Assembly: GCA_018401705.1 (NCBI GenBank)
Contig: JAGYKL010000006.1
Coordinates: forward strand, 1 to 64,000
Length of the DNA: 64,000 nucleotides
DNA from: Bacteroidia bacterium
Lineage (GTDB): Bacteria > Bacteroidota > Bacteroidia > M30B66
Direction: 5' to 3'
Shown: positions 1,961 to 53,349 of the stretch, one piece after another
Layout: every line of letters begins with the position of its first letter
Numbering within the stretch: position 1 is the first letter of the stretch
The notes under the pieces: model-generated
What the model saw: the letters and a program-made list of their open reading frames with translations, nothing else
What the model was told of the DNA's origin: nothing
Database searches by the model: none
Position numbers and translations under genes: made by a program

Positions 1961-1979
1961 GTTTTTAGGAGTTCATTCA

Positions 1980-4900: not shown

Positions 4901-7900
4901 AGATTAAGATGTTTTCTCCCGGACTCATCATTGAAACCTCAGCATTTGCAGATGCTGGGTCTGAGAAAATGCCTGTTCCGTTGGTTGACCAAGTTCCGTT
5001 TCCTACCGCAGGTAGTTCAGCATTTAAAATATAATTAGTTGAACACAATGCTGAATCTGCACCTGCATTTGCCGGCGACGGTGGCTCTGAATTAATAACC
5101 AAAACAGTATCTGAAGTTTCAGGGCAATTTCCTGTGCTTACAGTCCAAGCCAAAGTAATTATGCCAAAACCATTAGGGGTAATTTCTGCGAAAGGATTTG
5201 TATCATCGCTCAATGTTGCATCACCAGAAATAATGGTCCAAACACCTGTTCCAGGATTAGGCTCTGCGGCTTGAAGTTCGGTTATTTCAGAGTTACAAAT
5301 GCTTAAATCAGGACCTGCGTTTGCTAGCACAGCTGCAGAATCTCTAATTATAATTACCTGGTCAGATGTAGGCGGACAAACTCCGCTGCTCACGGTCCAT
5401 TGCAAAACATTCACGCCTTCGGCCAATGTGCTAACTGGAGTTTGAGGGTTTTGAGCATCATCAAAAACAGCACTGCCGGTAACGACAGACCAAATTCCGG
5501 TTCCACTCGACGGTGTTTCTGCCGCGAGGGTGGTTTCGTCAGAACAAAGTTGCTGATCAGCACCGGCATCAGGCTGCGAAGGCAGGTCATTAACCGTAAT
5601 TACTAATTCGTCTGTTAAATCAGGACAAGCTCCATTTGTAACAGTCCATTGTAAGGTGGTGCTTCCCGGATTTAAATTAAACACTAAAGTTGAAAGACTG
5701 TTGGGGCTAGAAAGCTCTCCGCTCCCGCTAAGAATTTGCCAGGTTCCGATTCCTGAAATAGGGTCGGCTGCTGTTACAGTAACTGTGTCGGCACAAATTT
5801 CTATGTCGGCTCCGGCGTTTGCCACAGCATTATTTTCTGCGACACTCACTTGAAAGCTGTCAACAGAAGGTGGACAAGCGCCGTTGCTGATAGTCCAAAC
5901 AAACGTAACTAGTCCGGTAGATAATCCCGAAACACCAGTTTGACTGTCGGTTGAATCTGCAAATGAAGCCGTTCCGGCAGAAACAGACCAAAGTCCAGTT
6001 CCGATAGTTGGAGTATTTGCGTTAAGTTGAATAGCTGTTCCTTCACAAATTTCCTGGTCTTCGCCAGCTAAAGCGGCTGAAGGATTTTCACTTCGTGTGA
6101 TGGAAACCTGATCAAACACTTCGCAAGCTCCGTTTGTGATGGTCCAGCGAAGCACGGTTGTGCCAACAGCGATATCTGAGATTGTAGATTGAGGATTTGA
6201 AGGGTCATCAATTGTTGCTGAACCACTGATGATGCTCCAGGCGCCTGTTCCAGCTGAAGCAGCTAGTGCATCTAGAACAGAATTATCTTCACAAATTGAT
6301 TGGTCGTTACCTGCATCAGGCGCAATTGGATCTTCGTTTACTGTAATTGAAACTGTGTCTGTTTCAACATCGCAAGCTCCGTTTGAAATAATCCAAAGCA
6401 ATAAATTCTCACCAACCGAAAGTCCTGAAACCTGGTCGGCAGGGTCAGAAGCATTACTAAAAATGGCAGTTCCTGAAATCACTTGCCAGGTTCCTGTGCC
6501 GATAGTTGGGGTTTCTGCATCAAGTATGGTGGTTGTTCCACAGAGTATTTGGTCGACACCCGCCGAAGCTGGTGTTGGATTTTCGCTTCGCGTGATGGAA
6601 ACTTCATCAAATTCTTCGCAGCTTCCGTTTGTGACGGTCCATCGTAAAACTACAGTGCCAATTGCAATTCCGGTTAATGAAGAAGCTTCATCGCTTGGAT
6701 TACCGATTGTTGCAGTTCCACTTACGATGCTCCATTGACCAGTTCCAACCGTAGGTTGTGCGGCAGCTAATAATGTATTGTCTTCACAAATACTTTGGTC
6801 GGCACCTGCATCAACAGGACTAGGATTCTCGAATGATGTTATGGAAACTTCATCCGCCGAAGGCGGGCAAACACCATTTACAACTGTCCATGAAAGAACA
6901 TTTTCTCCAAAAGCGAGGTTGCTTGCAGGTGTTGAAGCTGAGTTTTCATCATCAAAAGTGGCACTTCCCGAAATTACGCTCCAAGAGCCAGAGCCAACAA
7001 GAGGAATTTCAGCATTTAAGCTAAGTGCCGTACCGCATAAACTTGAATCGACACCAGCACTGGCAGCTGTTGGGGGTTCGTCTCTTTGAACATTTAGAAT
7101 AGCTGTTGTTGGTGGACAAGCTCCATTGCTTACCGTCCAGGTGAAAGCTGAATTACCGAAGGGTAAATTACTCACTGTTGAGTTTGCATCAGCCGGGTTT
7201 GAAATATTTGCCCCTACGGGTGATACAGTCCAAAGACCAGAACCAATTGCGGGAACATCAGCCGAAAGGCTTACTTCGTCATTACATATTTGAATGTCTT
7301 CTCCAACAGATGCTTGAGAAGGATTTTCATCCACTTGAATTTGCAAAGTATCAGAAACTGAAGGGCAAGTTCCGTTTGTGACTGTCCAAACCAACTCGGT
7401 AATTCCTATTTGTAAATCGCTCACATCAGATTGAGGATCTGTGGAATTACTTAAAGTTCCTGAGCCCAAAAGGAAAGTCCAGTTTCCAGAGCCTGTTGAA
7501 GGTAAGCTTGCTTCAAGCGAAGTTGAATTAGCGCAAAGCTGTTGATTATCGCCAGCCAGAGCTGATGAAGGTTGTATAAAACGTTCAATAGTAACATCAT
7601 CCACCGAAGGTGTACAAATGCCATTTGAAATTGACCATCTAAAAACATTCGCACCTTCAGAGAGGCCAGTTACTGTTGTTGAAGCTGCATTTTCATCATC
7701 AAAAACACCTGAACCCGAAACCAGAATCCAGGTTCCGCTGCCTACAACAGGAGTGTTTGCACTTAAGTTTGCTTCACTGTCGCACACTTGTTGGTTATCG
7801 CCAGCCAAAGCCGCGTCTGGAGGAGGAATTCTTTCGATGCTTACAGTGTCGCTAGAAATACAATCTGTGCCGTTTGTGATAGTCCAAACAAATTCGGAAA

Positions 7901-10433
7901 TGCCCAATCCAATATCACTTACAGCAGTAGTTGCCGAAGCAGGATTTGTAATTGTTGCCGTTCCGCTAAGCAGAGCCCAAACGCCAGTGCCTACAACGGG
8001 CAAATTACCTTCAAGAGAGGTAAAATCATCGCAAACCTGTTGGTCTGGCCCGGCGGCTGCATCGGTTGGCAGAGGAATCGCGGTTACGTTAACAGATTCA
8101 CTTACAGAGCACTGCGCATCATCTTTTACCGTAATTGTATAAGTTCCGGCATCGCTTACAAGCACCGAGTCATTGTTGATTTGAGAGTTATCGGGGAAGG
8201 TCCAGGTGTATTGAGCGGTAGTTAATCCAACCGAACTACTTGCTGAAACAGTGAAGAGAGCATTTTCGCCTTCGCAAAACTCGGCGGAAGTTGGAGTTAC
8301 CTCATCTATTGCTAAATCGCCAAACGGACAGCAGTCGATATTTGCAATACTAATAACATTATCACCGTAGTTACATTCAGGTAAGGAACCTAAAGGAAAG
8401 TTAAATGGCGGAGCAGTTGTTCCATCATCATTGAGAAGCACGAAAAGTGAAAATGGCTTTTCTGGAGCTGAGATATCGAGTGTATAGCTTAAAGTTTCAG
8501 AATCTCCTGCATCAATAGCATTGCCTGTGGAGTTTGGTCCGCTTATAACCGGGATTTGAACAGCGGCTCCGGTAAATGGGTTACCGGCATAAAAGCGAAT
8601 TGGGTAGCCAGAATCGGAAGGAGCGCCACCAACGTTTGTTACTAGCAAGGATAAATCATAAGATGCCGAGCCGTTGCAGGCAGAAGCATTTAATGAAAGA
8701 GCCACGTCAGAAGCCGGGTAAATTGGGCAGCCTTCTTGAGTTAAGAAAGTTGACTGACTTAAGTATGTATTGAAAGGTCTGTTCTCGCTGCAAGTGTAGA
8801 AAGGGCAAGTAACAGTGCTTAACAAAACCTGATGTTGTTGCTGTTGAATAGGAACGCTTAGGTTATTGTTGATGTTTACATTATAATAACCGTATTGATT
8901 CCAGATGTTTCGACAAGGAGCCCAGGGCTGACCGGCAGATTCAAAGATTTGCAATCGGGCGAGATTTATACCCTCAACTGCGCAGCTAACGCAGATTTCG
9001 GCTTGTCCGTCGCCATCAACATCAGCAACTACGGCCATTTCGGCTCCGGTTCCTGAACCACACACGTTTGTTCCGATTGTTACCGGAGAGTTTCCGCTGC
9101 CATCGATGATTCTGAGGTTAGATTCGTCGCGATAAACCAGCTCCTGAGTTCCATCTTGATTAAAGTCGAACATGGTAATACCGGTAAAACCTGAGGCATC
9201 AGAGGTAACTAAGGTCCACTTTATTGACAGGGCTGCACTTCCATCATAGTCTAAAGCATAGACTCGTCGTGATCGTGTGACACCAATTTCGGGTTGACAA
9301 TCTTTGTCCATATCGCCAATAAAGGGCACGCCAATCCAGTTACCACCTGTATTAGGTAGGTTTATCGAAGCTACTAGAGCTGGAGAACCATTATTGGGGC
9401 TCCAAACATAAATTTCGCCGGTGTTTCCGCTTCTGGCAACAACTACATCCAGATTACCATCTAAATTAATATCTGCCAAAGAAGTAAAGCCGTCGTTTTT
9501 ACCGGGAAGTGTAATCGGAGTGATTGTATTACCGGCAATTCCAGCAGGATTAGTGATACTTATATTATAGACGGTATTTCCGGCAGCTAATTCCAGACCG
9601 GGGCTAGTGGTTAAATCTGCGGCAACTACATTTGAAATATCTCCAAAATTCTCGTTTGACATGATTCCTCTTCCGCCAGTTGGGCTTCCTGCAACAAGCA
9701 AAGCTCCTGTTTGAGCATTAAAGACATTATTATAAAGATATACTTCTGCCTGACCATCGCTGTTAAAGTCGGCAATACCTAAAGATGAGCCAAACCTTGC
9801 GGTTGAAGCATTTCCAAAAGTTGAATCACTCACCCATTTAAGAGCTCCGGTGTGTTCGTAGCAAAACAAGCGGCGGCGATCTGATAAGAGGTTATCGGGG
9901 TTATCCATGGCGGCCACTATGATTTCGCCAAAGCCATCTCCATCAATATCCGCCATTGCAAAGGGTGTTGGCCCAACCCAAGCCATAAAAGGAGTTGTAA
10001 TTGTAAGTTCGGTAACTCCTGTTTGTCCGTTAATTACAAGTATGTCTTTTGCTCTTCGGGGTTCTGATGTTGTGAAAGAGTTGGTTGACATAAAGAGAAC
10101 TTCCGGCACACCGTCGTTGTCTATATCGCCCACTAGAGGACTTTGATAGGCAGGAACAGTATCGGAGCTAGACCATTGCGAAGCAAAATTAAGAGCCCCT
10201 CCGGGAGATACGAATTCGCAGGAAGGTTGACAAAGCAGGGTTTGGTCGTCGCAAGGGCAATCAGGGTCGAATACATCAACCAAATTATCTCCATCGTCGT
10301 CAATGCCATTGTCACAAATCTCTTGAGCATTTAAAGAGAGTCCGGAAAATAGAACTAAAAAAAAGCCGGAAAAAACAACTCTGCTTATAATGGAACTTGC
10401 TGAAGAAGATTGTCCAGGTAATTGTGTGTTCAT
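1980..10433 (-). CDS. giant Ig-repeat surface protein with type B T9SS sorting domain
   Basis: About 2817 residues from the ATG at 10433 (an adjacent ATG at 10436 is equally possible). The open frame extends to 10622, but those extra 63 codons (repeated LSLSK) only translate a palindromic DNA repeat, and a signal peptide begins just after 10433. Order of parts: signal peptide; a short acidic NGIDDDGD motif; FG-GAP/VCBS-like DxDGDG repeats to about residue 510; a CARDB-like and a PKD-like domain to about 787; 18 tandem Ig-like repeats of about 82 residues (each with AGxDQxIC and W(T/S)(V/I)xNGxC motifs) to about 2274; two cadherin/VCBS-like domains (NDPPIIVND, DSYVYTPDE-type); three more Ig-like repeats; and a final ~95-residue type B sorting domain (FSPNGDASNDLFVIYGI, VFNRWGNLVYES). 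The architecture is SprB-like. Likely role: a cell-surface adhesin or structural filament exported by T9SS with the adjacent PorP/SprF protein. The ligand is unknown. Confidence 0.9.
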   Translation of the reverse strand: MNTQLPGQSSSASSIISRVVFSGFFLVLFSGLSLNAQEICDNGIDDDGDNLVDVFDPDCPCDDQTLLCQPSCEFVSPGGALNFASQWSSSDTVPAYQSPLVGDIDNDGVPEVLFMSTNSFTTSEPRRAKDILVINGQTGVTELTITTPFMAWVGPTPFAMADIDGDGFGEIIVAAMDNPDNLLSDRRRLFCYEHTGALKWVSDSTFGNASTARFGSSLGIADFNSDGQAEVYLYNNVFNAQTGALLVAGSPTGGRGIMSNENFGDISNVVAADLTTSPGLELAAGNTVYNISITNPAGIAGNTITPITLPGKNDGFTSLADINLDGNLDVVVARSGNTGEIYVWSPNNGSPALVASINLPNTGGNWIGVPFIGDMDKDCQPEIGVTRSRRVYALDYDGSAALSIKWTLVTSDASGFTGITMFDFNQDGTQELVYRDESNLRIIDGSGNSPVTIGTNVCGSGTGAEMAVVADVDGDGQAEICVSCAVEGINLARLQIFESAGQPWAPCRNIWNQYGYYNVNINNNLSVPIQQQQHQVLLSTVTCPFYTCSENRPFNTYLSQSTFLTQEGCPIYPASDVALSLNASACNGSASYDLSLLVTNVGGAPSDSGYPIRFYAGNPFTGAAVQIPVISGPNSTGNAIDAGDSETLSYTLDISAPEKPFSLFVLLNDDGTTAPPFNFPLGSLPECNYGDNVISIANIDCCPFGDLAIDEVTPTSAEFCEGENALFTVSASSSVGLTTAQYTWTFPDNSQINNDSVLVSDAGTYTITVKDDAQCSVSESVNVTAIPLPTDAAAGPDQQVCDDFTSLEGNLPVVGTGVWALLSGTATITNPASATTAVSDIGLGISEFVWTITNGTDCISSDTVSIERIPPPDAALAGDNQQVCDSEANLSANTPVVGSGTWILVSGSGVFDDENAASTTVTGLSEGANVFRWSISNGICTPSVDDVTIERFIQPSSALAGDNQQLCANSTSLEASLPSTGSGNWTFLLGSGTLSNSTDPQSDVSDLQIGITELVWTVTNGTCPSVSDTLQIQVDENPSQASVGEDIQICNDEVSLSADVPAIGSGLWTVSPVGANISNPADANSTVSNLPFGNSAFTWTVSNGACPPTTAILNVQRDEPPTAASAGVDSSLCGTALSLNAEIPLVGSGSWSVISGSATFDDENSASTPASNLAFGENVLSWTVVNGVCPPSADEVSITSFENPSPVDAGADQSICEDNTLLAAAQPTVGTGQWSIVSGTATIGNPSDEASSLTGIAIGTVVLRWTVTNGSCEEFDEVSITRSENPTPASAGVDQILCGTTTILDAETPTIGTGTWQVISGTAIFSNASDPADQVSGLSVGENLLLWIISNGACDVETDTVSITVNEDPIAPDAGNDQSICEDNSVLDALAASAGTGAWSIISGSATIDDPSNPQSTISDIAVGTTVLRWTITNGACEVFDQVSITRSENPSAALAGEDQEICEGTAIQLNANTPTIGTGLWSVSAGTASFADSTDSQTGVSGLSTGLVTFVWTISNGACPPSVDSFQVSVAENNAVANAGADIEICADTVTVTAADPISGIGTWQILSGSGELSSPNSLSTLVFNLNPGSTTLQWTVTNGACPDLTDELVITVNDLPSQPDAGADQQLCSDETTLAAETPSSGTGIWSVVTGSAVFDDAQNPQTPVSTLAEGVNVLQWTVSSGVCPPTSDQVIIIRDSAAVLANAGPDLSICNSEITELQAAEPNPGTGVWTIISGDATLSDDTNPFAEITPNGFGIITLAWTVSTGNCPETSDTVLVINSEPPSPANAGADSALCSTNYILNAELPAVGNGTWSTNGTGIFSDPASANAEVSMMSPGENILIWTVTNGSCPAQTDSIALTVAKKPITPNAGPDLSVCDETATLSAAESSSGTGTWTLISGTATINDINSANSTVSGLVPGIAVLRWTISSGDCEVFDEMQILRSEPPSISNAGNDITVCSESVVLNAEVPLVGTGAWSILSGNGTIENSDQASTNVNSLQSGENVFQWTVSSGACKPSSSSITITRDTTVLPANAGDDFSTCSDTASLAASPSFNGSWSIVEGTVVIADSSNPNSEISGLEVGSVTLLWTVPANGECPETSDEVIITRLEPPSAAIAGEDMMICDDEITLTANIPAVGTGMWEVIGGNAVLQDPSSATTTATGLEPGNNVFEWRITNGVCPPESDEITIARGDTAYAGEDQTICDSSATLSAVLPAGLTGVWSLVSGSGIIADSTSAETTVDSLGNGENVFQWTVLGGFCPDSTDLVVVTRSCNTPPDITNDNFTVDEDSVLSGTFITDDVDPDGTSLTADTVLVQPPSNGTVIVNPDGTFIYTPDENYFGLDTFIVAVCDSGLPLPILCGNDTIIIDVLPINDPPIIVNDTINGSVGAEISGNLNDNNSDIDGDELVATTEPISGPNSGTIVIQPDGSYVYTPDEGFIGSDTVVVLICESPDIPPEECYPDTIFITIGEEEITANAGQDQIICGNSTTLSAEDAAPNEGTWSVVSGSGNFANENNPSTFVSALTEGDNVFVWTVTNGNSTATDTVIITSNPAAAPAFAGEDQLVCASEVTLSGSEPENGDVLWEIVTGAGTISNPNEVSILISDLAQGLNQIIYTITLGECTSTDTVNVNSLPIAIVSLSADTSVCPDYASVSITGTISQGEGIWSVSQGAAVFENENQPSTSVSGLQTGVNVLVFTTGTSPCIVSDSIQITVLSESDSECGTIFIPEGFSPNGDASNDLFVIYGIDGKRVDIKVFNRWGNLVYESESYQNNWDGICTTGGVLYGEQLPEGTYYYLVQIEGENETRKGYLTLWR

Positions 10434-10562
10434 CATTTTCTGATTTTGTACCGGGTGCTTGAAACTGAGTTTCAATATCAATCGATTCAAAGTTGACAAA
10501 AGATGAAGAAGTACTTTCGATAAGCTTAGAAATGTTGTTAAGTGACCGTTGTTGATAACCTG

Positions 10563-10721
10563 CTTCGACAAGCTCAGCAGGACATTCGACAAGCTCAGCA
10601 GGTATTTCGACAAACTCAGCACCCGTAAAGTAGCAACCTCTAGAAATCTTAATTTTCAGTGGCTTGATGTTTATTAAGTCCTTCTGAGCTTGTCGAAGAA
10701 GGACTTTCGACAAGCTCAGCA
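10563..10721. repeat. cluster of TTCGACAAGCTCAGCA palindromic-type repeats
   Basis: Five copies of a short unit close to TTCGACAAGCTCAGCA lie upstream of the giant surface-protein gene: direct copies near 10563, 10584, 10605 (one mismatch) and 10704, and an inverted copy near 10684. The inverted and last direct copies form a hairpin with a stem of about 14 bp and a short loop (10684-10719). Units of this kind are, to my knowledge, widely scattered in intergenic DNA of Bacteroidota and resemble REP elements. Here they also create a false N-terminal extension of the downstream reading frame. Confidence 0.8.
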
Positions 10722-27001: not shown

Positions 27002-27979
27002 ATGGAATATAGAAGACTAGGTAAATCTGGCTTAAAGGTTTCGGCGCTTTCGCTTGGATCGTGGCTCACCTTCGGAAAGCAGATTTCTGATGATGTTGCC
27101 GAAGAATTGATGGTAGCTGCTTATGAAAACGGAATCAACTTTTTCGATAACGCTGAAATTTACGCGCGTGGAAAAAGCGAAATCGTGATGGGAAACATCC
27201 TTGCGAAGCAAAATTGGAGCAGAGATTCCTACATTGTTTCCTCAAAGGTATTCTGGGGTGGCGATTTACCAACACAAACTGGATTATCCAGAAAGCACGT
27301 TTTTGAAGCTTGTCATGCTGCCTTAAAGCGACTTCAAGTAGATTATCTAGACTTATATTTTTGCCACCGCCCCGACCCTGAAACGCCAATTGAAGAAACT
27401 GTTTGGGCAATGAACGACCTCATCAGACAAGGAAAGGTTTTGTACTGGGGAACTTCTGAATGGAGCTCTCAGCAAATTATGGAAGCTTTTAACGTTGCTC
27501 GCAGAGAACATCTTATTCCACCTACAATGGAACAGCCTCAATATAACATGCTGCATCGCCAGCGTTTTGAGGTTGAATATGAGCGTATATTCTCTGAAAT
27601 GGGCTACGGGTCAACCATTTGGTCGCCATTGGCTTCAGGTGTTTTAACAGGAAAATACAACGATGGCTTTCCTGAAGACACAAGACTGGGAATGAAGGGC
27701 TTAGAATGGCTGAAAGAAAAAGTTATCAATGATGAAAATATCCGCATTTCAAGAGAATTAAGCAAGGTTGCAGCTGACTTAGGATGCAAATTGCCTTCTT
27801 TAGCTATAGCATGGTGCCTGAAAAACCCTCATGTTAGCACAGTTATTCTTGGTGGTTCAAAAAAACATCACTTGATTGATAATTTGAAAGCACTTGAAGT
27901 TGCAGAAAAGATAGATGCTTCGGTTTCAGAAAAGATTGAAGAAATATTAAATAATAAGCCCTTTCAGGCTGGATTTTAA
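27002..27979 (+). CDS. aldo/keto reductase (Kv-beta/YghZ-like)
   Basis: A 325-residue (alpha/beta)8 NADPH-dependent reductase. It begins MEYRRLGKSGLKVSALSLGS, and the catalytic set is visible: Asp and Tyr in FFDNAEIYARGKSE, Lys in VSSKVFW and His in YFCHRPDP. The C-terminal GGSKKHHLIDN binds the cofactor phosphate. It resembles the voltage-gated potassium channel beta-subunit group, which reduces aldehydes and ketones; the physiological substrate is unknown. It stands alone: divergent from korAB, with a tandem-repeat array starting one base after its stop. Confidence 0.93.
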   Translation: MEYRRLGKSGLKVSALSLGSWLTFGKQISDDVAEELMVAAYENGINFFDNAEIYARGKSEIVMGNILAKQNWSRDSYIVSSKVFWGGDLPTQTGLSRKHVFEACHAALKRLQVDYLDLYFCHRPDPETPIEETVWAMNDLIRQGKVLYWGTSEWSSQQIMEAFNVARREHLIPPTMEQPQYNMLHRQRFEVEYERIFSEMGYGSTIWSPLASGVLTGKYNDGFPEDTRLGMKGLEWLKEKVINDENIRISRELSKVAADLGCKLPSLAIAWCLKNPHVSTVILGGSKKHHLIDNLKALEVAEKIDASVSEKIEEILNNKPFQAGF

Positions 27980-27980
27980 C

Positions 27981-28744
27981 GACCTCACCCCCTGCCCCCT
28001 CTCCTCTAGGAGAGTGGGAGTTAACTTTTTCTTCCCTTTCCCTTGAGGGGAAGGGTGCCGAGCCCAGCGAGGCGGGATAGGGGTTTAACAACAACGACCT
28101 CACTCTCTGTCCCCCTCCTTGAGGAGAGGGGGAGTTAACTTTTTCTCCTTCCCTTGAGGGAAGGGGTGCCGAGCACCAGCGGGCGGGATAGGGTTTATCA
28201 ACAACGACCTCATTCCCCTGCCCCCTCTCCCCAGGAGAGGGGATAACTTTTCTTCCCTTTCCCTTGAGGGTGCCAAGCGATAGCGAGGCGGGATAGGGGT
28301 TTAACAACACGACCTCCTTGCCCCTCCTCTGGGAAGTGGGGTTAACTTTTTCTCCCTTTCCCTTGGGGAAAGGGTGCCAGCCCAACGACGGGATAGGTTA
28401 ACAGCTACGACCTCACCCCTGCCCCCTCTCCTCTAGGAGAGGGGGAGTTAACTTTTTCTTCCCTTTCCCTTGAGGGGAAAGGTGCCGAGCCCAGCGAGGC
28501 GGGATAGGGGTTTAACAACAACGACCTCAGCCCCCTGCCCCCTCTCCTCTAGGAGAGGGGGAGTTAACTTTTTCTTCCCTTTCCCTTGAGGGGAAAGGGT
28601 GCCAAGCGATAGCGAGGCGGGATAGGGGTTTAACAACAACGACCTCAGCCTGCCCCTCTCTAGGAGAGGGGGAGTTAACTTTTTCTTCCCTTTCCCTTGA
28701 GGGGAAAGGGTGCCGAGCCTAGCGAGAAGGGCGGGATAGGGGTC
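27981..28744. repeat. seven-copy tandem array of a ~98-118 bp hairpin-rich unit
   Basis: Seven head-to-tail copies begin with GACCTC at 27981, 28096, 28206, 28311, 28409, 28523 and 28641. Each holds two nested palindromes, CCCCTCTCCT/AGGAGAGGGG and CCCTTTCCCTTGAGGGGAAAGGG-like, joined by GTTAACTTTTTC and followed by GCGAGGCGGGATAGGGGTTT. Copies differ mainly by small deletions. The array fills most of the gap between the reductase and the lysyl oxidase-like gene. Related GC-rich palindromic intergenic units are known in this phylum; their function is not established. Open frames across it (repeating LNPYPASL) are not genes. Confidence 0.9.
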
Positions 28745-28812: not shown

Positions 28813-31209
28813 ATGAAGAACTTCTACAAAAAAATTATTGCATTCCTATTCATCACTGCTTTCTCAGGATTATTTGCAAACATATTTGCTCAGTGTCCAG
28901 CTGAACAAAAAGAAGTAGTAATCAGCATTATTCCTGATCAATATCCTCAGGAAATTTCGTGGACTTTAACCTCCGACGCTACAATTATTGCCTCTGGTAC
29001 TTCAACAGGAACAACCCTTTGTGTTGATCCTGATGTTTGCCTAACATTTAGAATCATGGACTCTGCTGGTGATGGTATTTGCTGCCAATACGGAACTGGT
29101 TCCTACACAGTAACTTTAGATGGTACGGTTGTCGCCTCTGGCGGAAATTACACCAATGAACAATCTACATTATTCAATTGTCCTCCGGGCCAGGACTGCA
29201 ATTCTGCTCTTCCCATCGAAGCTGGCAGTCATATAGCTCCAGGTAGAGATTACTGGTACACTTTTACTCCTGATTCCTCTGGGATGTATTTTATTTCAAC
29301 CTGCGGAACAAATACTTGTGATACTAAACTATGGGTTTATGATCACTGTCAAGGTCTTTTAGTTTCTTCTTCAAACGAAGGAACCATTTACTATGACGAT
29401 AATGCCGGTGGTTGCGGCGATCAAGCAAGAATTAATGCTCTTATGGAACAAGGTGTTACCTATTGGATTCGGATAGGAGATGTTAGTCAAAGTTGCGAAG
29501 GAGAAATTAACTGGAACTTGTTTTATAATGGACCGGTGCAAGGTTGCATGGATCCGGTTGCTTGCAATTACAATCCCGTTGCAACAGTTCCTCATGTTTG
29601 TTATTTCGCGGGAGACCCAAATTGTCCCGAAGGAAGGCCTGACTTAATCGTGTTGGAAAACACCATCAAAACATCGATTTATCTTGCTTCAATAAATGCA
29701 ACCGATTGCCAGGTGGTAGAAGGCTGCTTAACAGGATATGGCCAACGTGATATTATTAGATTTACGACACATATAAAGAATATTGGAACTGCCGATTATT
29801 ATATTGGATCTCCTAACAGTCAGCCAAGTCAATTCTCGTGGGGTAATTGCCACGGCCACTGGCATTACGAAGGATATGCCGAATACATCATGTATGATGC
29901 GCAGGGAGAAGCTATTCCTGTTGGATTTAAGAATGGATTCTGTGTACTCGATTTAGAATGCGGAGATGGAGGAGATGCCACTTACGGTTGTTCAAACATG
30001 GGTATTTCCCGCCAATGCGGGGATATTTATGGCTCTGGGCTTGATTGCCAGTGGATGGATATCACCGATATCGATACTGGTTCTTATACGATGGTTGTTA
30101 GGGTGAATTGGGATAATTCTCCAGATGCTCTTGGTAGAGTTGAACTTTCTCATACTAACAACTGGGCTCAGGTATGCGTGCACCTTGGCTTAAATGACCA
30201 GGGCGAAAAAACAATTGAAATAATTGATGATTGTCCGGCTTATATTGATTGTGCGGGTGAGGTTTATGGTCCAAATCAATTAGATTGTTCAGGAAACTGC
30301 GGAGGAACAAGAATTATGGGCGACCTAAATTTATCAGGCACACAAGAAATGTCTGATTCCCACGAATACGTAACTCGAATCTTGGGCGAAGATATTAGTC
30401 CAAGCCCTTGTAATGATATCAACCAAGACGGAAGAATAACAGTTTTTGATGCATCTCTCGTTTCAAGTTGTGTAAACTTTGGAGTGAATCACCCACACGT
30501 TGGAAACGTTCCTCATGATCATTGTAATTTCCCTAATGGGTTGCTAAATCCCAATGATACCGTTACACTTTCTATTTTAAATATTGACTTCTCTGAGAAG
30601 TTCATCGATATTGGAATTCTAAATCCAAACACAAGGGTAAACGCTTATGAGTTTGAACTAGATGGAGTGAAAATCTGGAATGTAGAAAGCCTGGTTAATC
30701 AGTCAGAATACCCTGGAAATCCTGAGTTTTTAATTGGGGGTAATAAGGTAATCGGAATCAGTTACCCCGATTCAATGATTAGAAAATATTATGAGCCAAC
30801 TCCCCTGTGCAGGGTTCATTATTATGAATTAACAACAGATGAAGTTTGCATAAGCAACATCGTTGATATTGTGAGTGCTCAAATTGAACAAACTATTTCA
30901 GAAGTAGGAGGCTCTTGCTGGGAATTTGACCCAACAGGGGTGAAAAACTTCGACAAAGCAAATTATTTTGAGCTATTGCCTAATCCAACCTCTAATAATT
31001 TCAATGTAAACCTTCATATGCAAAAGCCTATTGATGTTACTGTTTCAGTTATAAATGCTCAAGGAAAACTAATCTCACAAGAGTTTATTCAGAATGCAGA
31101 GAATCAGCAATTGGGGTTTAATACCAACGAGTGGGCAAATGGCATTTACCTCGTCAATCTAGTTTCTGATAAAGGAGTTATTACCAAAAAATTAATTGTT
31201 CAACATTAA
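28813..31209 (+). CDS. secreted lysyl oxidase-like protein with T9SS type A sorting domain
   Basis: 798 residues. Signal peptide (about 1-26, ending IFAQ); beta-rich domains to about 240; a GCMDPVACNYNP motif (about 248); a lysyl oxidase domain (about 270-455); a dockerin-like pair of calcium-type loops (GDLNLSGTQE and DINQDGRITVFD, about 500-560); a further strand-rich region; and a C-terminal type A sorting domain (LLPNPTSNNF, NGIYLVNL, KKLIVQH). The catalytic domain keeps the copper site CHGHWH (His347, 349, 351) and counterparts of both residues that form the LTQ cofactor in human LOX: Lys373 in FKNGFC and Tyr406 in DIYG, with Cys402 and Cys412 spaced as Cys351 and Cys361 in LOX. It should oxidise lysine side chains or amines outside the cell; the substrate is unknown. 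A bidirectional terminator follows. Confidence 0.88.
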   Translation: MKNFYKKIIAFLFITAFSGLFANIFAQCPAEQKEVVISIIPDQYPQEISWTLTSDATIIASGTSTGTTLCVDPDVCLTFRIMDSAGDGICCQYGTGSYTVTLDGTVVASGGNYTNEQSTLFNCPPGQDCNSALPIEAGSHIAPGRDYWYTFTPDSSGMYFISTCGTNTCDTKLWVYDHCQGLLVSSSNEGTIYYDDNAGGCGDQARINALMEQGVTYWIRIGDVSQSCEGEINWNLFYNGPVQGCMDPVACNYNPVATVPHVCYFAGDPNCPEGRPDLIVLENTIKTSIYLASINATDCQVVEGCLTGYGQRDIIRFTTHIKNIGTADYYIGSPNSQPSQFSWGNCHGHWHYEGYAEYIMYDAQGEAIPVGFKNGFCVLDLECGDGGDATYGCSNMGISRQCGDIYGSGLDCQWMDITDIDTGSYTMVVRVNWDNSPDALGRVELSHTNNWAQVCVHLGLNDQGEKTIEIIDDCPAYIDCAGEVYGPNQLDCSGNCGGTRIMGDLNLSGTQEMSDSHEYVTRILGEDISPSPCNDINQDGRITVFDASLVSSCVNFGVNHPHVGNVPHDHCNFPNGLLNPNDTVTLSILNIDFSEKFIDIGILNPNTRVNAYEFELDGVKIWNVESLVNQSEYPGNPEFLIGGNKVIGISYPDSMIRKYYEPTPLCRVHYYELTTDEVCISNIVDIVSAQIEQTISEVGGSCWEFDPTGVKNFDKANYFELLPNPTSNNFNVNLHMQKPIDVTVSVINAQGKLISQEFIQNAENQQLGFNTNEWANGIYLVNLVSDKGVITKKLIVQH

Positions 31210-31221
31210 AACTGCAATCAT

Positions 31222-31251
31222 AAAAAAAGCGGCTCTAAGCCGCTTTTTTTA
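31222..31251. terminator. bidirectional rho-independent terminator
   Basis: The stem AAAGCGGC/GCCGCTTT around TCTAA is flanked by A and T runs, so it can serve both the upstream plus-strand lysyl oxidase-like gene and the convergent minus-strand gene whose stop lies at its edge. Confidence 0.9.
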
Positions 31252-31971
31252 TTTCCTTTTCTTAGAAATCACCCGCCCATAGGAAAGAGCGAAAAGCTGA
31301 CTTCTTTGTGGCTCCCAGCCAAATTCATTCCCTTGAACTTTAAATGTCTGTTTCCCTGGAACTAGGAAATCGGCCAAATAATATCTTATTTTAAGATATG
31401 TGCCTTTGCCGAAGCAAAACTCTGCAAAAACCGAAGGATTTAATAGCTCTGTTCTGTCAGAAGCCCATTCGTTAAACTTCTCAACCTTGTCGCCTCTACC
31501 CTCTCCCAAGAAGGTTTTTTGCTTGTAATTGAAAAAGAACTCAAGTTCTGCACCCAAAGACGCATACTTCTTCTTACCCATATCGCCAATTTTAATTGCT
31601 AGAGGTACGCCAAAAGAATAAACTCTTTGCTTCACTTTTATCGTGTCGTTAAGGCGGTTTATCATACCCATATTACGAACACCAAACCCTGTGTAGAAAC
31701 CTAAAGAATTGCTAAAGTTTACATGAATTTGCTCTCCAAGATGAAAGAAAGCTGAAAATCGCGGAATGGGCTTCACAGATTCGGCAGATCCTACGTCTAC
31801 AGGATTTCCGTTTACAGATGTTAGAGACCACCCACCAACGTCGCCTAGAGATAAGATAGACTCGTTAACGAATGCCACATATGACTTTTTGTAGGTAGAT
31901 ACCGTTTCGGGTACTTGAGCTGAAGCAAGAATCGGCAAGCCAAGTGCCGCAAAAAGAAAATATTTTTTCAT
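31249..31971 (-). CDS. secreted outer-membrane beta-barrel-like protein
   Basis: A 240-residue protein with a signal peptide (MKKYFLFAALGLPILASAQ). The mature chain alternates short hydrophobic and aromatic strands (IHVNFSNSLGFYTGFGVRN, YASLGAELEFFFNYK, TYLKIRYYLADFLV), as in small PorT-like eight-to-ten-strand outer-membrane barrels. There is no enzymatic motif. It is 8 bases downstream of kbl on the same strand, so probably shares its transcript, though a functional link is not obvious. Confidence 0.7.
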   Translation of the reverse strand: MKKYFLFAALGLPILASAQVPETVSTYKKSYVAFVNESILSLGDVGGWSLTSVNGNPVDVGSAESVKPIPRFSAFFHLGEQIHVNFSNSLGFYTGFGVRNMGMINRLNDTIKVKQRVYSFGVPLAIKIGDMGKKKYASLGAELEFFFNYKQKTFLGEGRGDKVEKFNEWASDRTELLNPSVFAEFCFGKGTYLKIRYYLADFLVPGKQTFKVQGNEFGWEPQRSQLFALSYGRVISKKRK

Positions 31972-45307: not shown

Positions 45308-47017
45308 TTAGTTGAAAATCAACTTCTGAGCAGCAGAGTTTCCTTTTGCGTCAGTTACCTGAACAACATAAATACCTGCACTCAAATTTCCACGCTGTAC
45401 AATATAGCTTCCACGAACATTATTTACTTGCTCGATTCTTTTGCCCATAATATCACTAATTACAACAGAGTAAGATTCATTCTGAGATGCAAATTGAATC
45501 TTCGTTGAAAGGTCTGCAGGATTAGGATACATTGCAGAAATAGGAGAAACAATCTCATTTATTCCAACGATTTCTGTACAAGTATTATAAATATAAGCCA
45601 AAGTCACAGCCTCTCCAGAAGTACGAGTGTATGTTCTATTGAAACCTCCAATTCCGTTTGGAACAACACAATCGCGGTCCATTTCATCTGGGAATTGCTC
45701 TTCGTTTGCAGGAGTATTAACATCTCCATTCACAAACTTATAATTAATTGTACCTGGACAAATATCTGCAACTGTTGTTTCATAAACACCTGGAGCTACT
45801 GGAGTAAGCTCAATTGCACCACCTTGGAATGGAGGATTGGTAAAGTCTCCGATCAGATAAATATTCGCTGCTGGAGTTTCGGCAGTTAAATCTACCCTGA
45901 AAGTAATAGTAGATGGTGCAGGAATTTCTGAACACTCTCCTAAAACATCTGCACCGAAACATCTTGCGCCCATAACAGTGTCGCTTCCTAACTGGATAAT
46001 TTTATCTCCGCCGCCTTCCCAGCCGCTTCCAAAGTTAGCATTACGAATAATTCTTGCTTTGTATTTAACCTCTCCTTCAGTAATGTTTTCAAGTGTAATA
46101 GTGTAAATACCATCATTGTCATCATCTGACATTAAAAAGTCTGGACCGCCTGCAAAACCATTAAAAGTACCAGCAACATCAACAGAATCATCAACACCAA
46201 CCTGAAAATTACAGTTGTAATTCATATCCACATTTAGTGTAAGTGAGTATGTGTTTAACTCTACGCAAGCGTCATTACAAGTGCCAAAGCAATACTTTTC
46301 CAAAACAGCAGGTCCTGAAATTGCAAGAGCCCTATTGTTATTAGATGCGCATGCACTAGGAACATCTTCAAAAGCAGTTCCATTAACAAACTTATATTCA
46401 AACGGACCTAAAACAGAAGGAATATAAAAGATTCCAGTGTAAACGTCTAGGTTGTCGTTAGGGTCAACATCATATAGTTTGTTTTGACCAGCTACCCAAT
46501 CAGAAATTCCACCTGCAGCAGTTTGCCAGCTTCCTGCTGAAGAAATACCTTCTGAAGCAACTGTTGAACCCGTCATATCTACAGAGAAACGAATCATTGA
46601 TAATTCAACAATTCCATCACTTCCTCCATTTTGACTAAAATAAATTGGCGGAATAAAAACGTCAGCACCGTCAACAACAAAGAATCTGTTAGAGTTTCCA
46701 CTTCCTACTTGACTTTCAACTGGAACATTTTCAGCCATTGGCCAATCATTACCATTGATGAATTTAAATTCATAGGTTCCATCAGGTAAAGTGTTAGTGA
46801 AAGAGTAAATTCCTCCTCCTTCGTCAGTCATTTGTGTTTGATCTGGTTGCCAGTCTTCTGCGACTCCGATTTCGCTTTGGAAGCTTCCCGCAATATGAAC
46901 ACCATTAGGGTCTACAGATTGACCTGTCATGTTCACATAAATTGATACTGAACTTTGCGCTATCAGTCCTAATGAACCTGAAATCATCAAAGCAGCAGTT
47001 AGTAATTGTTTTTTCAT
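45308..47017 (-). CDS. secreted carbohydrate-binding-like protein with T9SS type A domain
   Basis: 569 residues. Signal peptide (MKKQLLTAALMISGSLGLIAQ) and four repeated beta-sandwich domains of about 110-130 residues, each opening with a V-D/N-M/L strand and an A-G-S/T-F/W-like turn (VNMTGQSVDPNGVHIAGSF, VDMTGSTV, VDMNYNCNF with VAGTFNGF, VDLTAETPAANIYLIGDF) and containing YEFKFINGNDW or YKFVNG, typical of starch-binding CBM20/48-like folds. It ends in a type A sorting domain (MYPNPADLSTKIQF, SAGIYVVQVTDAKG, KLIFN). It is divergent from the GH13 gene and likely works with it at the cell surface on alpha-glucans. No catalytic motif is seen. Confidence 0.83.
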   Translation of the reverse strand: MKKQLLTAALMISGSLGLIAQSSVSIYVNMTGQSVDPNGVHIAGSFQSEIGVAEDWQPDQTQMTDEGGGIYSFTNTLPDGTYEFKFINGNDWPMAENVPVESQVGSGNSNRFFVVDGADVFIPPIYFSQNGGSDGIVELSMIRFSVDMTGSTVASEGISSAGSWQTAAGGISDWVAGQNKLYDVDPNDNLDVYTGIFYIPSVLGPFEYKFVNGTAFEDVPSACASNNNRALAISGPAVLEKYCFGTCNDACVELNTYSLTLNVDMNYNCNFQVGVDDSVDVAGTFNGFAGGPDFLMSDDDNDGIYTITLENITEGEVKYKARIIRNANFGSGWEGGGDKIIQLGSDTVMGARCFGADVLGECSEIPAPSTITFRVDLTAETPAANIYLIGDFTNPPFQGGAIELTPVAPGVYETTVADICPGTINYKFVNGDVNTPANEEQFPDEMDRDCVVPNGIGGFNRTYTRTSGEAVTLAYIYNTCTEIVGINEIVSPISAMYPNPADLSTKIQFASQNESYSVVISDIMGKRIEQVNNVRGSYIVQRGNLSAGIYVVQVTDAKGNSAAQKLIFN

Positions 47018-47349
47018 GATATTGGATTTGTTTCAGCTCACGAAGTTAATAAATACAAGCACCTGAATCGTTCATTAAGGTGTCATTCATACGCTAAGAG
47101 CTCCTAAGGAGCTGGTAGTTAGCGTTTTAAATTTGAAATAAGTAATTAACTTAATTTAGTTAATAACGAATCTTAGGTGTTTGGACGACGTAATGTTATT
47201 AACAAAAGTTGCAATGATTTGTTAATTTTATCAATCTGAATATCAGCGACATAAACAAATCAAGCCATAAGACAATCTTTTGAATAGTGTTAAAATTACA
47301 CTTAACTTATTACCTTCGAAGTTCGAATCATGTGAAGTTGCTAATAATT
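47018..47349. other. divergent intergenic region of the alpha-glucan locus
   Basis: The 332 bases between the two outward-facing secreted-protein genes are AT-rich. A small hairpin (AGCTCCTAAGGAGCT, about 47099-47113) is present. TAACTTCG (minus strand, 47041-47048) and TACCTTCG (plus, 47311-47318) deviate from TAnnTTTG by one base and could be -7 boxes; neither has a well-spaced -33 element. No gene is seen. Confidence 0.4.
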
Positions 47350-50229
47350 ATGAAAAAATCACTCTCTCTTTTAATCTTACTTTTTTCCTTAGGATGGACT
47401 TTGGGTTTCTCACAAGCCATAGTTACATTAGACCCTCCATTTCCTACCTCCAACGATGCTGTAACAGTAACATTTAATGCTGACCAAGGAAATGGACAGT
47501 TGGCTAACCTACCAGCTGGAACTGTAGTGTATGCCCATACAGGTATAACCGTAAATGGCACAAATTGGCAATATGTGGTTGGCGCCTGGGGAACTGTTGA
47601 TAGCAGAGTTGCTATGACTAGAATTGGCAATACCAACCAGTATACTTTAAGTATTGGTAACAACTCAATCAGAGACTGGTATCAAACAAATAATGATGCA
47701 GGCGCGACTATTCCCGCAGATGCTGAAATTTCAAAGCTGTGTATGGTTTTCCGAAATGCAGATGGAAGCTTGGAAGGAAAAACGGCAACCAATGGAGACA
47801 TTTTTGTTGACTTAGCTACCAGCGAATTTTCTGCATCAATTACTTCTCATCCGCAAAACAGCCTGCTTTTAGATGCCGGTCAGGATATCACCTTTACTGG
47901 TCAAGCTTCTGCCGATGCTGCTTTGCAATTTAAATTGGATGATGTAGTTGTAGGAAGCGCTAATGCTGCTAATTCATTAGATTATCTAGTAAACACAAAC
48001 GACCTGTCTTCTGGTTTGCATACTCTTATTTTTGAAGCTAGCAGTGGAAGCAGTGTTGTTAGAGATACAATCTTGTTGAACAGACACGCTGCTCCTAATA
48101 TTGCTTCTGTCCCTTCATATGGTGAAGAAGGTATCATTTATCCAAATGAAACTACCGCTTATCTCCAACTTAGAGCTCCATTCAAAAGCTTTGTTTATGT
48201 ATTAGGAGACTTCAACAATTGGTCATTCCTTCCAGAATACAAAATGAACAAAACACCTGATGGTCAATATTATTGGATTGAAATTCCGGGATTAGACCCA
48301 AATACCGAGTATCGATTTCAATACTTCATCGACTGGGAAGGGATTAGAGTTGCCGACCCTTATTGCGAAAAGGTGCTTGACCCTTGGAATGATCCTTGGA
48401 TTAGCGAAAGTACATATCCAAACCTCATTGATTACCCTTCAAATCAAACAGAAGGAATTGTAGGGGTATTACAAACCAGACCCCCTGTATATAATTGGGA
48501 CCAGTCTTATTCATACACAAAGCCACCTAAAGAAGACTTAGTGATTTATGAATTACTTGTTAGAGACTTTACTTTAGAAAGAACATTCGCTTCTGTTATT
48601 GATAAACTCCCTTACATTGCAACTCTTGGAGTAAACGCTATTCAACTTATGCCTGTGGCAGAATTTGATGGAAACGAAAGTTGGGGATATGCACCGTCTT
48701 TCCCAAGTGCTGTAGATAAATATTATGGAACGCGCAATGAACTTAAACGCTTAGTTGACAGCTGTCACGCAAGAGGCATTGCAGTTATTTCGGATGTTGT
48801 ATTTAATCATGTCTGGGGCTCTTCTCCTTTATCTCAAATGTATTTCAATGATGCCCTTGGAAGGCCTGCGGCAAATAACCCTTGGCTTAACGAAACGGCT
48901 CGTCACCCTTTTAATGTTGGATATGATATGAATCATGAAAGCAATGCAACAAAGTACTTTGTTAAAAAGCATTTGAAGCATTGGATTGATGAATACAAAA
49001 TTGATGGGTACCGTTTCGACTTAAGTAAAGGCTTTACTCAAACCAATTCGGGACAAGATGTTGGCGGGTGGAGCAACTATGACCAAGGCCGCGTGAATAT
49101 ACTTCTTGAATATGCCGCATCAATCCGTGAAACCGACCCTACAAATCTGATTATTTTTGAACACTTTGGTGCGTGGGACGAGGAAGTTGTTTATGCAAAC
49201 AACGGAATTATGCTTTGGGGATATGGCGGAACTCCATACAGTGAAGCTGCTATGGGCTGGCCGAGTAATCAAAACCTGTATAATACAACGCCACAATTTA
49301 GGGGCTGGAATAACTACGGCCTTCAAACTTTCATGGAAAGTCATGATGAAGAAAGACTTATGTATAAAAACCTAAATTTTGGTAACGCCTCCGGCGGATA
49401 TGACACCAAGTCTCTTCCAACTGCTTTAGATAGAATGGGAGCTGCGGCTGCTTTCTTAATTCCTCTTCCCGGTCCTAAAATGATGTGGCAATTCGGAGAA
49501 CTTGGCTATGATGTATCCATTAATGATTGTGGTAACGGAACAATAAGTGAAGATTGCAGAACAAGTAACAAACCTGTTAGATGGGAATACTATAACAATC
49601 AAGATAGAAAAGATCTGTTTGATGTATACCGTAAACTAATCTATTTGAAAAAGACTCAGCCTTCCTTAAGAGATTTAGGACACTTTATGGATGTTGGAGG
49701 TTATGAAAAAGTGGTTCGTTTTACAAATAATGACTTCAATTGTGTAATTGTTGGTAATTTTGATGTTGTTGGCCAAGAAATGAATCCTGGATTTCCTTTT
49801 GGAGGTATTTGGTACGACTACCTAAATGACGATTCTCTTGATGTAAGTAATCCTGGAAATGCCTTCAATTACGCTCCGGGTGAATATCATGTTTATACCG
49901 ATAGAAGAATTGTTCCCCCAGCTAATAACTATGTGTTAATATCTACAAACAACGAGAACGACTTAAACAGTGAATCAAACTCAGCGATTCTTGTGTATCC
50001 AAATCCGGTATCGAATAATGTAACATTTAAACTCCCGGTTTCTGCCGATAAGAATGATATTATAACTATTTCAGACATAACAGGTAGGGTTGTTTTACCT
50101 GTTAACTCTCTCAATAATGGAAGTGGAAACAAGTATTCATTTGACACTTCTAATTTAACTCCAGGAATCTACATTTACAGCCTCACTTTAAAAGGCCAAG
50201 TCCACACAGGTAAAATAATCAAGCAATAA
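47350..50229 (+). CDS. secreted GH13 alpha-amylase-family enzyme with T9SS sorting domain
   Basis: 959 residues from the ATG at 47350, which gives a clean signal peptide (MKKSLSLLILLFSLGWTLGFSQ); the open frame begins 21 codons earlier without a plausible signal. Order: a starch-binding-like N-terminal domain, a CBM48/E-set-like domain (KSFVYVLGDFNNWSFLPEYK), the GH13 barrel and a type A sorting domain (VYPNPVSNNVTF, TPGIYIYSL). The four conserved regions are present: DVVFNHVW (482-489), GYRFDLSK with nucleophile Asp557, FEHFG with acid/base Glu604 and ESHDEER with Asp666. It should cut alpha-1,4 or alpha-1,6 glucans outside the cell; the domain layout leans to a branching-enzyme-like or pullulanase-like GH13. 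It heads the susCD operon. Confidence 0.93.
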   Translation: MKKSLSLLILLFSLGWTLGFSQAIVTLDPPFPTSNDAVTVTFNADQGNGQLANLPAGTVVYAHTGITVNGTNWQYVVGAWGTVDSRVAMTRIGNTNQYTLSIGNNSIRDWYQTNNDAGATIPADAEISKLCMVFRNADGSLEGKTATNGDIFVDLATSEFSASITSHPQNSLLLDAGQDITFTGQASADAALQFKLDDVVVGSANAANSLDYLVNTNDLSSGLHTLIFEASSGSSVVRDTILLNRHAAPNIASVPSYGEEGIIYPNETTAYLQLRAPFKSFVYVLGDFNNWSFLPEYKMNKTPDGQYYWIEIPGLDPNTEYRFQYFIDWEGIRVADPYCEKVLDPWNDPWISESTYPNLIDYPSNQTEGIVGVLQTRPPVYNWDQSYSYTKPPKEDLVIYELLVRDFTLERTFASVIDKLPYIATLGVNAIQLMPVAEFDGNESWGYAPSFPSAVDKYYGTRNELKRLVDSCHARGIAVISDVVFNHVWGSSPLSQMYFNDALGRPAANNPWLNETARHPFNVGYDMNHESNATKYFVKKHLKHWIDEYKIDGYRFDLSKGFTQTNSGQDVGGWSNYDQGRVNILLEYAASIRETDPTNLIIFEHFGAWDEEVVYANNGIMLWGYGGTPYSEAAMGWPSNQNLYNTTPQFRGWNNYGLQTFMESHDEERLMYKNLNFGNASGGYDTKSLPTALDRMGAAAAFLIPLPGPKMMWQFGELGYDVSINDCGNGTISEDCRTSNKPVRWEYYNNQDRKDLFDVYRKLIYLKKTQPSLRDLGHFMDVGGYEKVVRFTNNDFNCVIVGNFDVVGQEMNPGFPFGGIWYDYLNDDSLDVSNPGNAFNYAPGEYHVYTDRRIVPPANNYVLISTNNENDLNSESNSAILVYPNPVSNNVTFKLPVSADKNDIITISDITGRVVLPVNSLNNGSGNKYSFDTSNLTPGIYIYSLTLKGQVHTGKIIKQ

Positions 50230-50247
50230 TCCGAAACGATAAACTCC

Positions 50248-53200
50248 ATGAATAAACTTTTAAAATTATCTTTTCTGTTACTCTGCTTTCTTCATTTCGA
50301 AGGAAATGCACAAACCATAAAAGGTGTTGTGCTCGATGAGAACAAAGAGCCAATGATTGGCGCAGCAGTTCGTTTACAAGGAACAACCATTGGAACTACC
50401 ACCAATCTTGATGGACAGTACACATTAAGTAACCTAAATCCCGGTAAATTAACCCTTGAATTTTCTTTCGTTGGATACGAAAAACAATTAAAAACGGTTA
50501 ATCTGGTCGCGGGTCAAACTCTTACTCAAAACATGAACATGGCCGAAAATGCCAATTTAATGAACGAGTTAATCGTTGTTGGTTATGGTGTTCAAAGGAG
50601 AAGAGATGTTTCTGGATCAATCGTGAAACTTGATGGTAAAGAGCTAATGGAAGTACCAACCCCTAGTTTCGAAAACGGACTTCAAGGTAAAGCGTCCGGA
50701 CTTCAGGTAATTACTGGTTCGGGAGCTGCGGGAAGTGCTTCAACTGTTCGTATTAGAGGTGTAGCATCTGTTTCCGCCGGAGGCGATCCATTATATGTTA
50801 TTGATGGTATTCCGATTACCCAGGATTATTTCTTAAATGGCAACAGCCAGGGAATGAACAATAACCCATTAGCTGCAATTAATCCTAATGATATTGAATC
50901 TGTTGAAGTTCTAAAAGATGCAGCAGCAACTGGTATTTATGGTTCAAGAGGTTCTAATGGAGTAATTTTGATTACAACAAAAAGAGGTAAGAAAAACAAA
51001 GGTCTACATGTTGATTTTTCAACCCGTCAGGGTATTTCAACTCCCACTGCTCGTCCAAACATGATGAACTCTAAAGAATATCTTCAGATGTATGAAGAAG
51101 CCTGGGTGAATGATGGCCGCTTAGGAGTTCCTGTTTTACCGGGCAATATTTCCTGGGCAGATGCTCAAAATACAGATACTGACTGGGTTGATGAAGTTAT
51201 TGGCGTAGGGTATCAGCAGAATTATGACCTGGGAATCTCTCATGCAGGTAAGAAGCATAATGTGTATGGAGGGTTTTCACGTCAGAACGATCAGTCATAC
51301 ATGATTGGTAACTCTTACGAAAGAACTTCAGGAAGATTTAACGGCGACTATATGCCTACAAACTGGGCGAAAGTTTCACTTTCGAGTTCACTTTCTCAAG
51401 GTGTAAACAACAGACTTCCACAGGGTTATGCCGGTGGTCTCGGAGCTGCAATGTCTCAGGCGCTTCCTATCTATCCAATTTTTCATCAGGCTGATGTTCT
51501 GGATGATGATGGAAATATTATCAATAAAAAAGGCGATTACTTCTTCCCAAGTAACGATATCAACAGAAACCCGGTTGCTGCAAGAGAGCTTAGAACCATT
51601 CAATCGAATGAGAACAGGTCTATCAACAACCTATCATTAGAGTTAAAGCCAATTAAAGATTTGATTATCACCGGTACCGGCTCTATCGATTACATGTTTT
51701 GGAGAAATAATGAATATCAGAAAAAAGGATACGATCAAAACAATCCGAATTTCAGCAACGCTTACAGACAAAGTCTGGATGTGTTCAATTACAACTTGAA
51801 TGCTGTTGCCAATTACCTGAAGACATTCAAAGAAAATCACAATTTCGCTTTTATGGCTGGAGTTGAGTATCAGGACTCTAAAACAACATTCTTCCCGAAT
51901 CAGAGCTTAAATCAGATTGCTACTGGCTTCCTGGATCAAAACAGCGCTGATGTTATCAATGATGGAAATCAAAGATTTACTGAATGGAATTTCCTTTCTC
52001 ATTTCGGAAGAGTTAACTACAACTTTAAAAATAAATACTATGTTGAATTAGTTGGTCGTCGCGATGGCTCTAGTCGATTTGGGAAAAACAATAAATATGG
52101 ATTCTTTCCATCAGCCTCTGCAGCATGGATAATCTCTGAAGAAGCATTTCTTAAAGACAAAAAGGTTGTTTCTTTCTTAAAAGTTAAATCAAGTCTAGGA
52201 AAGAACGGTAACTCGAATATCGACCCATACGCTCAATACGCGTTTTTTGGCCAAATTAATAACGCCTATAACGGTGAAACCATAATCTTCCCAAATGCTG
52301 ATAGGCCGGCTAATCCAAACTTAAAATGGGAAACTTCAACAACTTTTGATGCAGCTATCGAATATGGTTTGTTTAATGATAAGATAACTGGAGAAATGGC
52401 TTATTACCGTAAGCAAACCAACGACGTGCTTTTAAATGTTGCTACTCAATTTAATTCAGGATTTGGCTCTGCTTGGGCAAATGTTGGAGGTATCTTAAAT
52501 CAAGGTTTTGAGTTTAGCATAAAAGCAAATGTGATTGATCGTGGAAGCAAATTCAATTGGTCTATCGATTTCAACATTGCACGTAATATGAATGAAGTAA
52601 CCAGCTTAGGTAACTACACAGAAGAAGCAATTAGCGGCGGTACAAACGACACTCGTTTAATTATCGGCCAACCTGTCGGAAACAATTATCTGGTAAGATT
52701 CAGTCATGTTGACGCACAAACAGGCCGTCCTGTTTACCTTGACAAACAAGGGAATGAAACATTTGAGTGGAGTGTTGATAATCGTGTATCAACAGGTGCA
52801 ATTTTACCCGATGCAATCGGGGGAATTAGAAACGATTTCCGTTTCGGAAGATTCGATGTTTCTATGTTCTGGGTGTTTGTTTTAGGAGGTGATATTTATG
52901 ACTCCTCCTCTAAGCGCCAACTTGGTACTTTTGATCAGGATGGATGGAATCACAGAACAGACCATTTCGACAGATGGCAACAGCCAGGTGATGATGCTAA
53001 ATATCCAATTTTAACTACAACACCAGAGAATCACGGATCCGGAACGCCATGGATAAACACTGACTTGTGGCTGCATGATGGAACTTATGCTCGTTTGAGA
53101 AACCTTTCACTTGGGTACAATCTACCCGACTCGTTTTTGAAGAAAGTTAAACTTGGAACTGCGAGAATTTCTATCGCCGCAAACAATATTCTTACTCTTA

Positions 53201-53337: not shown

Positions 53338-53349
53338 AAATTGTATATC

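Follow-up and report, generated by a model that had tools for sequence, protein, structure and literature searches.

We believe the window (the whole stretch of DNA that was analysed, 64,000 nucleotides from an aquatic bacterium) encodes a lysyl oxidase (LOX) with a full animal active site, carried by a protein that bears a T9SS tail. The 798-aa open reading frame at 28813-31209 on the plus strand, from ATG to TAA, has exactly the coordinates given in the preliminary description, and we have hardly any doubt that it holds a genuine lysyl oxidase domain with its active site intact. That identity, copper and LTQ residues included, had been claimed before and is now borne out by sequence, by fold, by about 100 relatives and by purifying selection. 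To judge from its sequence the enzyme is very probably active, and the protein is predicted with the same confidence to be exposed at the cell surface. The reading of its function that we favour, at what we judge an even chance, is a surface-anchored Cu/LTQ amine oxidase predicted to act on extracellular proteins. The parts of the gene are as follows.

28813..31209, plus strand: T9SS-borne lysyl oxidase ORF, 798 aa (ORF call, Pfam)
28813..28890, plus strand: putative Sec signal peptide, aa 1-26 (by inspection; model helix 2-24)
28894..29187, plus strand: N-terminal beta domain, aa 28-125 (family consensus DxYPxExSW ... YGDGICC; without a Pfam family)
29188..29538, plus strand: second beta-sandwich, aa 126-242 (model; weak Pfam matches only)
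29635..30234, plus strand: lysyl oxidase catalytic domain, aa 275-474, with the C455/C474 pair included (Pfam, PDB searches, alignment, model, fold match)
29848..29865, plus strand: copper site CHGHWH, C346-H351 (LOXL2 alignment, invariant columns)
29929..29931, plus strand: K373, the LTQ lysine, equal to LOXL2 K653 and LOX K320 (LOXL2 alignment)
30028..30030, plus strand: Y406, the LTQ tyrosine, equal to LOXL2 Y689 and LOX Y355 (LOXL2 alignment)
30262..30492, plus strand: dockerin type I-like region, aa 484-560 (two model helices, 513-524 and 544-556; weak profile match)
30505..30927, plus strand: beta-sandwich, aa 565-705 (model; absent from Pfam; a cohesin-like fold is possible, on a weak match)
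30979..31200, plus strand: T9SS type A C-terminal sorting domain, aa 723-796 (PF18962, TIGR04183)
31220..31252, plus strand: terminator-like hairpin of 15 pairs, directly 3' of the LOX gene (hairpin search)

The catalytic domain is recognised by every method we applied to it. The preliminary description had suggested comparing the region with PF01186, predicting its structure and watching for a profile search that would assign it to an unrelated fold. PF01186 matches aa 307-453 with an E-value of 1.1e-31 (110.5 bits against a cut-off of 20.4), far beyond chance. A phmmer search of the PDB with the ORF protein finds LOXL2 (5ze3) as its sole match, at E 4e-21, and the alignment places K373 under LOXL2 K653 and Y406 under Y689. 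In the profile search of the PDB, LOXL2 is again the one relevant protein (E 1.6e-34), with K373 and Y406 on the same two residues. The AlphaFold model of the domain, made from 81 homologues, has a mean pLDDT of 88.8, and when Foldseek compares it with 350,542 chains the only significant match is LOXL2 5ze3 (E 2e-15, TM 0.73 as TMq); along the aligned fold the two are about 27% identical. Eight cysteines of the window domain align to LOXL2; C455 and C474 correspond by position to the fifth LOX cysteine pair, and the disulfide pairing is a predicted one.

The residues named earlier for the active site prove exact: C346-H347-G-H349-W-H351, K373 four residues before C377, and Y406 between C402 and C412. 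The three histidines, the Lys/Tyr pair and ten cysteines are the positions that are completely conserved across the LOX family (PMC9180022). The preliminary description took a model with Lys373 and Tyr406 far apart as grounds for giving up the assignment, and this is unsound. LOXL2 is an active enzyme, yet its precursor crystallised (5ze3) with 16.6 A between the Lys and the Tyr (PMC9694262, PMC9180022), so a distant K373-Y406 pair in the model would refute nothing. One part of the human site does differ. LOXL2 mutants at His623 and His652 form less than 50% of the LTQ (PMC9694262), and His623, His637 and His652 are all not kept in the window protein. His623 is absent in the clade; the His652 position is Phe in the window protein and in 73/100 clade rows, and His in the paralogue described below. 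Since these second-shell histidines are replaced and the His652 mutation lowers LTQ in LOXL2, cofactor formation may differ here.

Among GTDB species genomes our scan picked out 402 loci with a gene for a relative. The 80 best of them all lie in Bacteroidota, nearly all in MAGs, and by title they include Flavobacteriales, Crocinitomicaceae, Saprospiraceae, Chitinophagales and others. No relative was found on viral contigs or in phages. The architecture of about 800 aa, which is shared by many uncultivated Flavobacteriales, Saprospiraceae and Chitinophagales, holds over a full-length alignment of 47 sequences. In 44 of these the T9SS type A tail passes the threshold we set; some relatives have extra N-terminal length or PKD domains. 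Across the aligned domains of the clade, the three copper histidines, the LTQ lysine, the LTQ tyrosine and eight cysteines are invariant (100/100), and the alignment of 81 rows shows no change at the other two cysteines, C455 and C474. Selection on the gene is purifying: dN/dS is 0.041 for the pair L034/L035, which is free of saturation, and 0.096 for the window protein with L037, where synonymous change is near saturation.

LOX is present in 9 of the 10 genomes examined from the window's own family and is rare phylum-wide, where 3 or 4 of 396 genomes besides the window's have it, mostly as weak matches. A further copy lies on contig C12 of the window's genome; it is 38% identical and has the same architecture. 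The tree assigns the two to different groups, both well supported, and one of these groups also takes in other families, so the split between the copies is old. Tandem LOX genes occur in a Saprospiraceae MAG (L085:2504-4909 and L085:5077-7563). LOXL2 comes out next to the clade, but the support is weak (89/65) and the branches are long, and we do not use this placement as evidence of transfer between animals and bacteria.

In animals, lysyl oxidase cross-links collagen and elastin. The window protein shares with animal LOX and LOXL2 (PF01186, 5ze3) the fold, the three copper histidines, the LTQ lysine and tyrosine and all ten cysteines of the catalytic domain, but in place of SRCR domains and a propeptide it carries beta-sandwiches of Bacteroidota, a T9SS tail and a dockerin-like region. 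That bacteria have lysyl oxidases is already known: Grau-Bove et al. 2015 reported the enzyme from archaea and from bacteria, Bacteroidetes among them, and predicted activity (PMC4448552). Their sequences share with ours the domain family and the copper and LTQ residues. In their survey, however, the LOX domain stands alone in all but three prokaryotic sequences (PMC4448552), whereas the group described here is multidomain and T9SS-borne with the full animal set of cysteines. It is the survey's description that sets the two apart, and a member of the T9SS-borne group may be among the survey's sequences.

A characterised comparison is the enzyme of Haloterrigena turkmenica (HTU-LOX; Pestov et al. 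2019), which was expressed and refolded and oxidises lysine polymers and proteins (PMC6452851). It is a copper-stimulated amine oxidase stopped by the LOX inhibitor 3-aminopropionitrile (BAPN), and it is promiscuous, oxidising taurine, glycine, aminoglycosides and polymyxin as well (PMC6452851). Both it and the window protein are prokaryotic LOX, likened here by description only; HTU-LOX is haloarchaeal and T9SS modules are not expected in it. We sampled other prokaryotic forms as well. The LOX family proteins of Streptomyces and of a Gemmatirosa plasmid (L114-L117) share HxHxH, Lys and Tyr with the window protein but are missing most of the animal cysteines and have no T9SS modules. One of these, L114 (NZ_CP007129.1), lies on the 1.1-Mb plasmid of Gemmatirosa kalamazoonensis and has a LOX domain with HxHxH, Lys, Tyr and only some of the animal cysteines. 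A second Bacteroidota clade, clade B, of about 700 aa, is apart from the window clade on the tree (100/99). It has the Lys and Tyr in 12/12 sequences, but the HxHxH copper site in only 9/12, and several animal cysteines are missing. The remaining three (L016, L020 and L027) keep the LTQ Lys and Tyr and seem in the alignment to have lost HxHxH.

The rest of the protein bears on where the enzyme works. By inspection the N-terminus reads MKNFYKK-IIAFLFITAFSGLFANIFAQ, and the predicted structure has a helix at residues 2-24. The T9SS sorting domain claimed in the preliminary description is confirmed by both PF18962 (E 2e-13, 50.8 bits against a cut-off of 27) and TIGR04183 (E 1.5e-13, 50.5 bits against 23). 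The genome scores about 150 type A tails, and its T9SS machinery includes SprA, at 2543 bits, and PorP/SprF. The sprA gene (L148, G000:C31:2804-9811) is near full length apart from a garbled short stretch with three in-frame TGA codons within about 35 bases, which may be an assembly fault or real damage. Elsewhere in the window, 1040-10622, next to a PorP/SprF gene, encodes an FG-GAP/PKD/cadherin-like surface protein of 2880 aa whose T9SS tail is of the CHU_C type, and 45308-54729 is a starch-use locus with a T9SS-tailed CBM48/X25 protein, an alpha-amylase and then SusC-like and SusD-like genes.

The short cysteine motif GCMDPVACNYNP lies between the two N-terminal beta domains and the lysyl oxidase domain. 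The dockerin-like loops reported earlier are supported in relatives and are borderline in the window protein itself, where dockerin type I (PF00404) matches at E 0.002 with 18.7 bits, below the cut-off of 22.9. Among the relatives, 7/47 match at E 0.01, and L108 exceeds the cut-off with E 6.6e-9 and 36.3 bits. We rejected a cohesin identity for aa 565-705, which had a single fold match (2w1n) and nil support from Pfam.

From these parts we infer LTQ formation and activity, anchoring, and a protein rather than a small-amine substrate. The putative Sec signal would take the protein across the inner membrane and the T9SS type A tail across the outer membrane, after which it would probably stay anchored at the cell surface. 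The catalytic domain would bind copper through H347, H349 and H351, and K373 and Y406 would be self-processed into LTQ. The enzyme would then turn primary amines into aldehydes, and ammonia and hydrogen peroxide would be set free. Beta-sandwich and dockerin-like modules usually serve protein-protein contact. Because the enzyme is surface-directed and has such modules, its most likely substrates would be lysine side chains in the proteins that surround the cell, whether those that the cell itself secretes or builds into its surface layer or those on which it sits; oxidised to allysine, these lysines would form cross-links spontaneously. We regard the case for proteins as the main substrate as evenly poised.

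No neighbour is conserved generally across the relatives, the maximum being 12/80 loci. The commonest, in those 12, is an S46-type dipeptidyl peptidase, upstream and on the same strand in 11, followed by a lamin-tail-like protein, downstream, in 10/80 (both identified by eye, over L034-L113). In the window's family, LOX is accompanied downstream by an outer-membrane protein gene and by kbl in 4/4 loci. Thus nothing links the enzyme to the large repeat proteins of the window, which the preliminary description had offered as speculative targets. Just upstream of the LOX gene, 27989-28740 holds about six head-to-tail copies of a GC-rich palindromic intergenic repeat, some 111 bp apart. Terminator-like sites number 24 where 4.2 were expected, mostly owing to this array, and the ORF at 27843-28385 on the minus strand is mostly a reading of the array.

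A secreted general amine oxidase that works on free amines (polyamines, taurine, beta-alanine, amino sugars, peptide antibiotics), with cross-linking not its role, is in our opinion unlikely but worth weighing, and the same holds for the purposes it would serve: nitrogen, peroxide as a weapon, or detoxification. HTU-LOX, the sole characterised prokaryotic LOX we found, does have relaxed specificity (PMC6452851), and a lysine-rich partner was not found. However, no amine-metabolism gene, transporter or aldehyde dehydrogenase is conserved beside LOX over the 80 loci, and a conserved 800-aa, multidomain, surface-directed architecture exceeds what a scavenging enzyme needs.

We consider it distinctly improbable that the enzyme acts on foreign lysines, in host, prey or detrital protein matrices, to give covalent adhesion or an altered matrix. 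The T9SS cargo of environmental Bacteroidota is often degradative or adhesive, and the accessory domains are weakly similar in fold to the collagen-binding domain of ColG, but ColG is one of many beta-sandwich matches and its TM-score is low. Specific animal association is also absent from the titles of the best 80 of the 402 loci. That the domain is a catalytically dead relic serving as an adhesin or structural module, as the replaced second-shell His of the human enzyme might suggest, we regard as very improbable, since a relic's Lys and Tyr should drift, yet both residues, like the three His and the ten Cys, never change in about 100 diverged sequences, and the H. turkmenica enzyme is active (PMC6452851).

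Bacterial collagen-like proteins are an obvious candidate substrate for the surface-anchored enzyme we favour, and we reject them despite their enrichment. Proteins matching PF01391 are found in 18/19 LOX-bearing relatives against 18/41 without LOX (P 1e-4), in 11/11 against 16/37 when counted by family (P 6e-4), and in 47/56 genomes with LOX against 58/142 without it in a set of 198; these statistics, like those for the HYR control, come from hand-read lists, and genomes of the same family do not count as independent. For HYR, the control family, we see no link (5/19 with LOX against 16/41 without), and SprB, present in 54/60, is useless as a control. Lys is wholly missing from the Gly-X-Y stretches that we sampled in ten LOX-bearing genomes and in the window's genome, so LOX could not act on these proteins there, whereas Lys occurs in 4/10 samples from genomes without LOX (P 0.035 against the LOX-bearing samples). 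None of the sampled collagen-like proteins has a T9SS-like tail within the stretch read. The co-occurrence may be ecological. Grau-Bove et al. 2015 likewise judged cross-linking of bacterial collagen by prokaryotic LOX unlikely (PMC4448552). We also looked for lysine avoidance in the LOX protein itself, which has 1.3% Lys, but its K/(K+R) is like that of other T9SS cargo and gives no special signal.

In the literature we searched there was no description of a T9SS-borne, multidomain, ten-cysteine LOX group, and the group appears to be undescribed there; the one paper that mentions both lysyl oxidase and type IX secretion is, by its title, a review that deals with oral cancer and P. gingivalis. 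Grau-Bove et al. 2015 call for study of prokaryotic LOX function (PMC4448552), the native role of the haloarchaeal enzyme has been called cryptic, and the LOX structure in the papers cited here is that of the LOXL2 precursor only, without LTQ (PMC9694262, PMC9180022). The group described here, which is conserved, multidomain and directed to the surface, has the animal active site and cysteines in full and is a concrete and testable case for the function of prokaryotic LOX. We put forward, as a tentative and rather doubtful proposal, that a large group of uncultivated aquatic Bacteroidota cross-links proteins of its own extracellular matrix with an animal-type, ten-cysteine lysyl oxidase sent out by the T9SS. 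The ten-cysteine clade could be near the source of the animal enzyme, or its recipient. If the enzyme is active on proteins, bacteria would have covalent, allysine-based cross-linking of their matrix, and the group would bear on the origin of the animal enzyme and offer bacterial LOX domains for work on structure and inhibitors.
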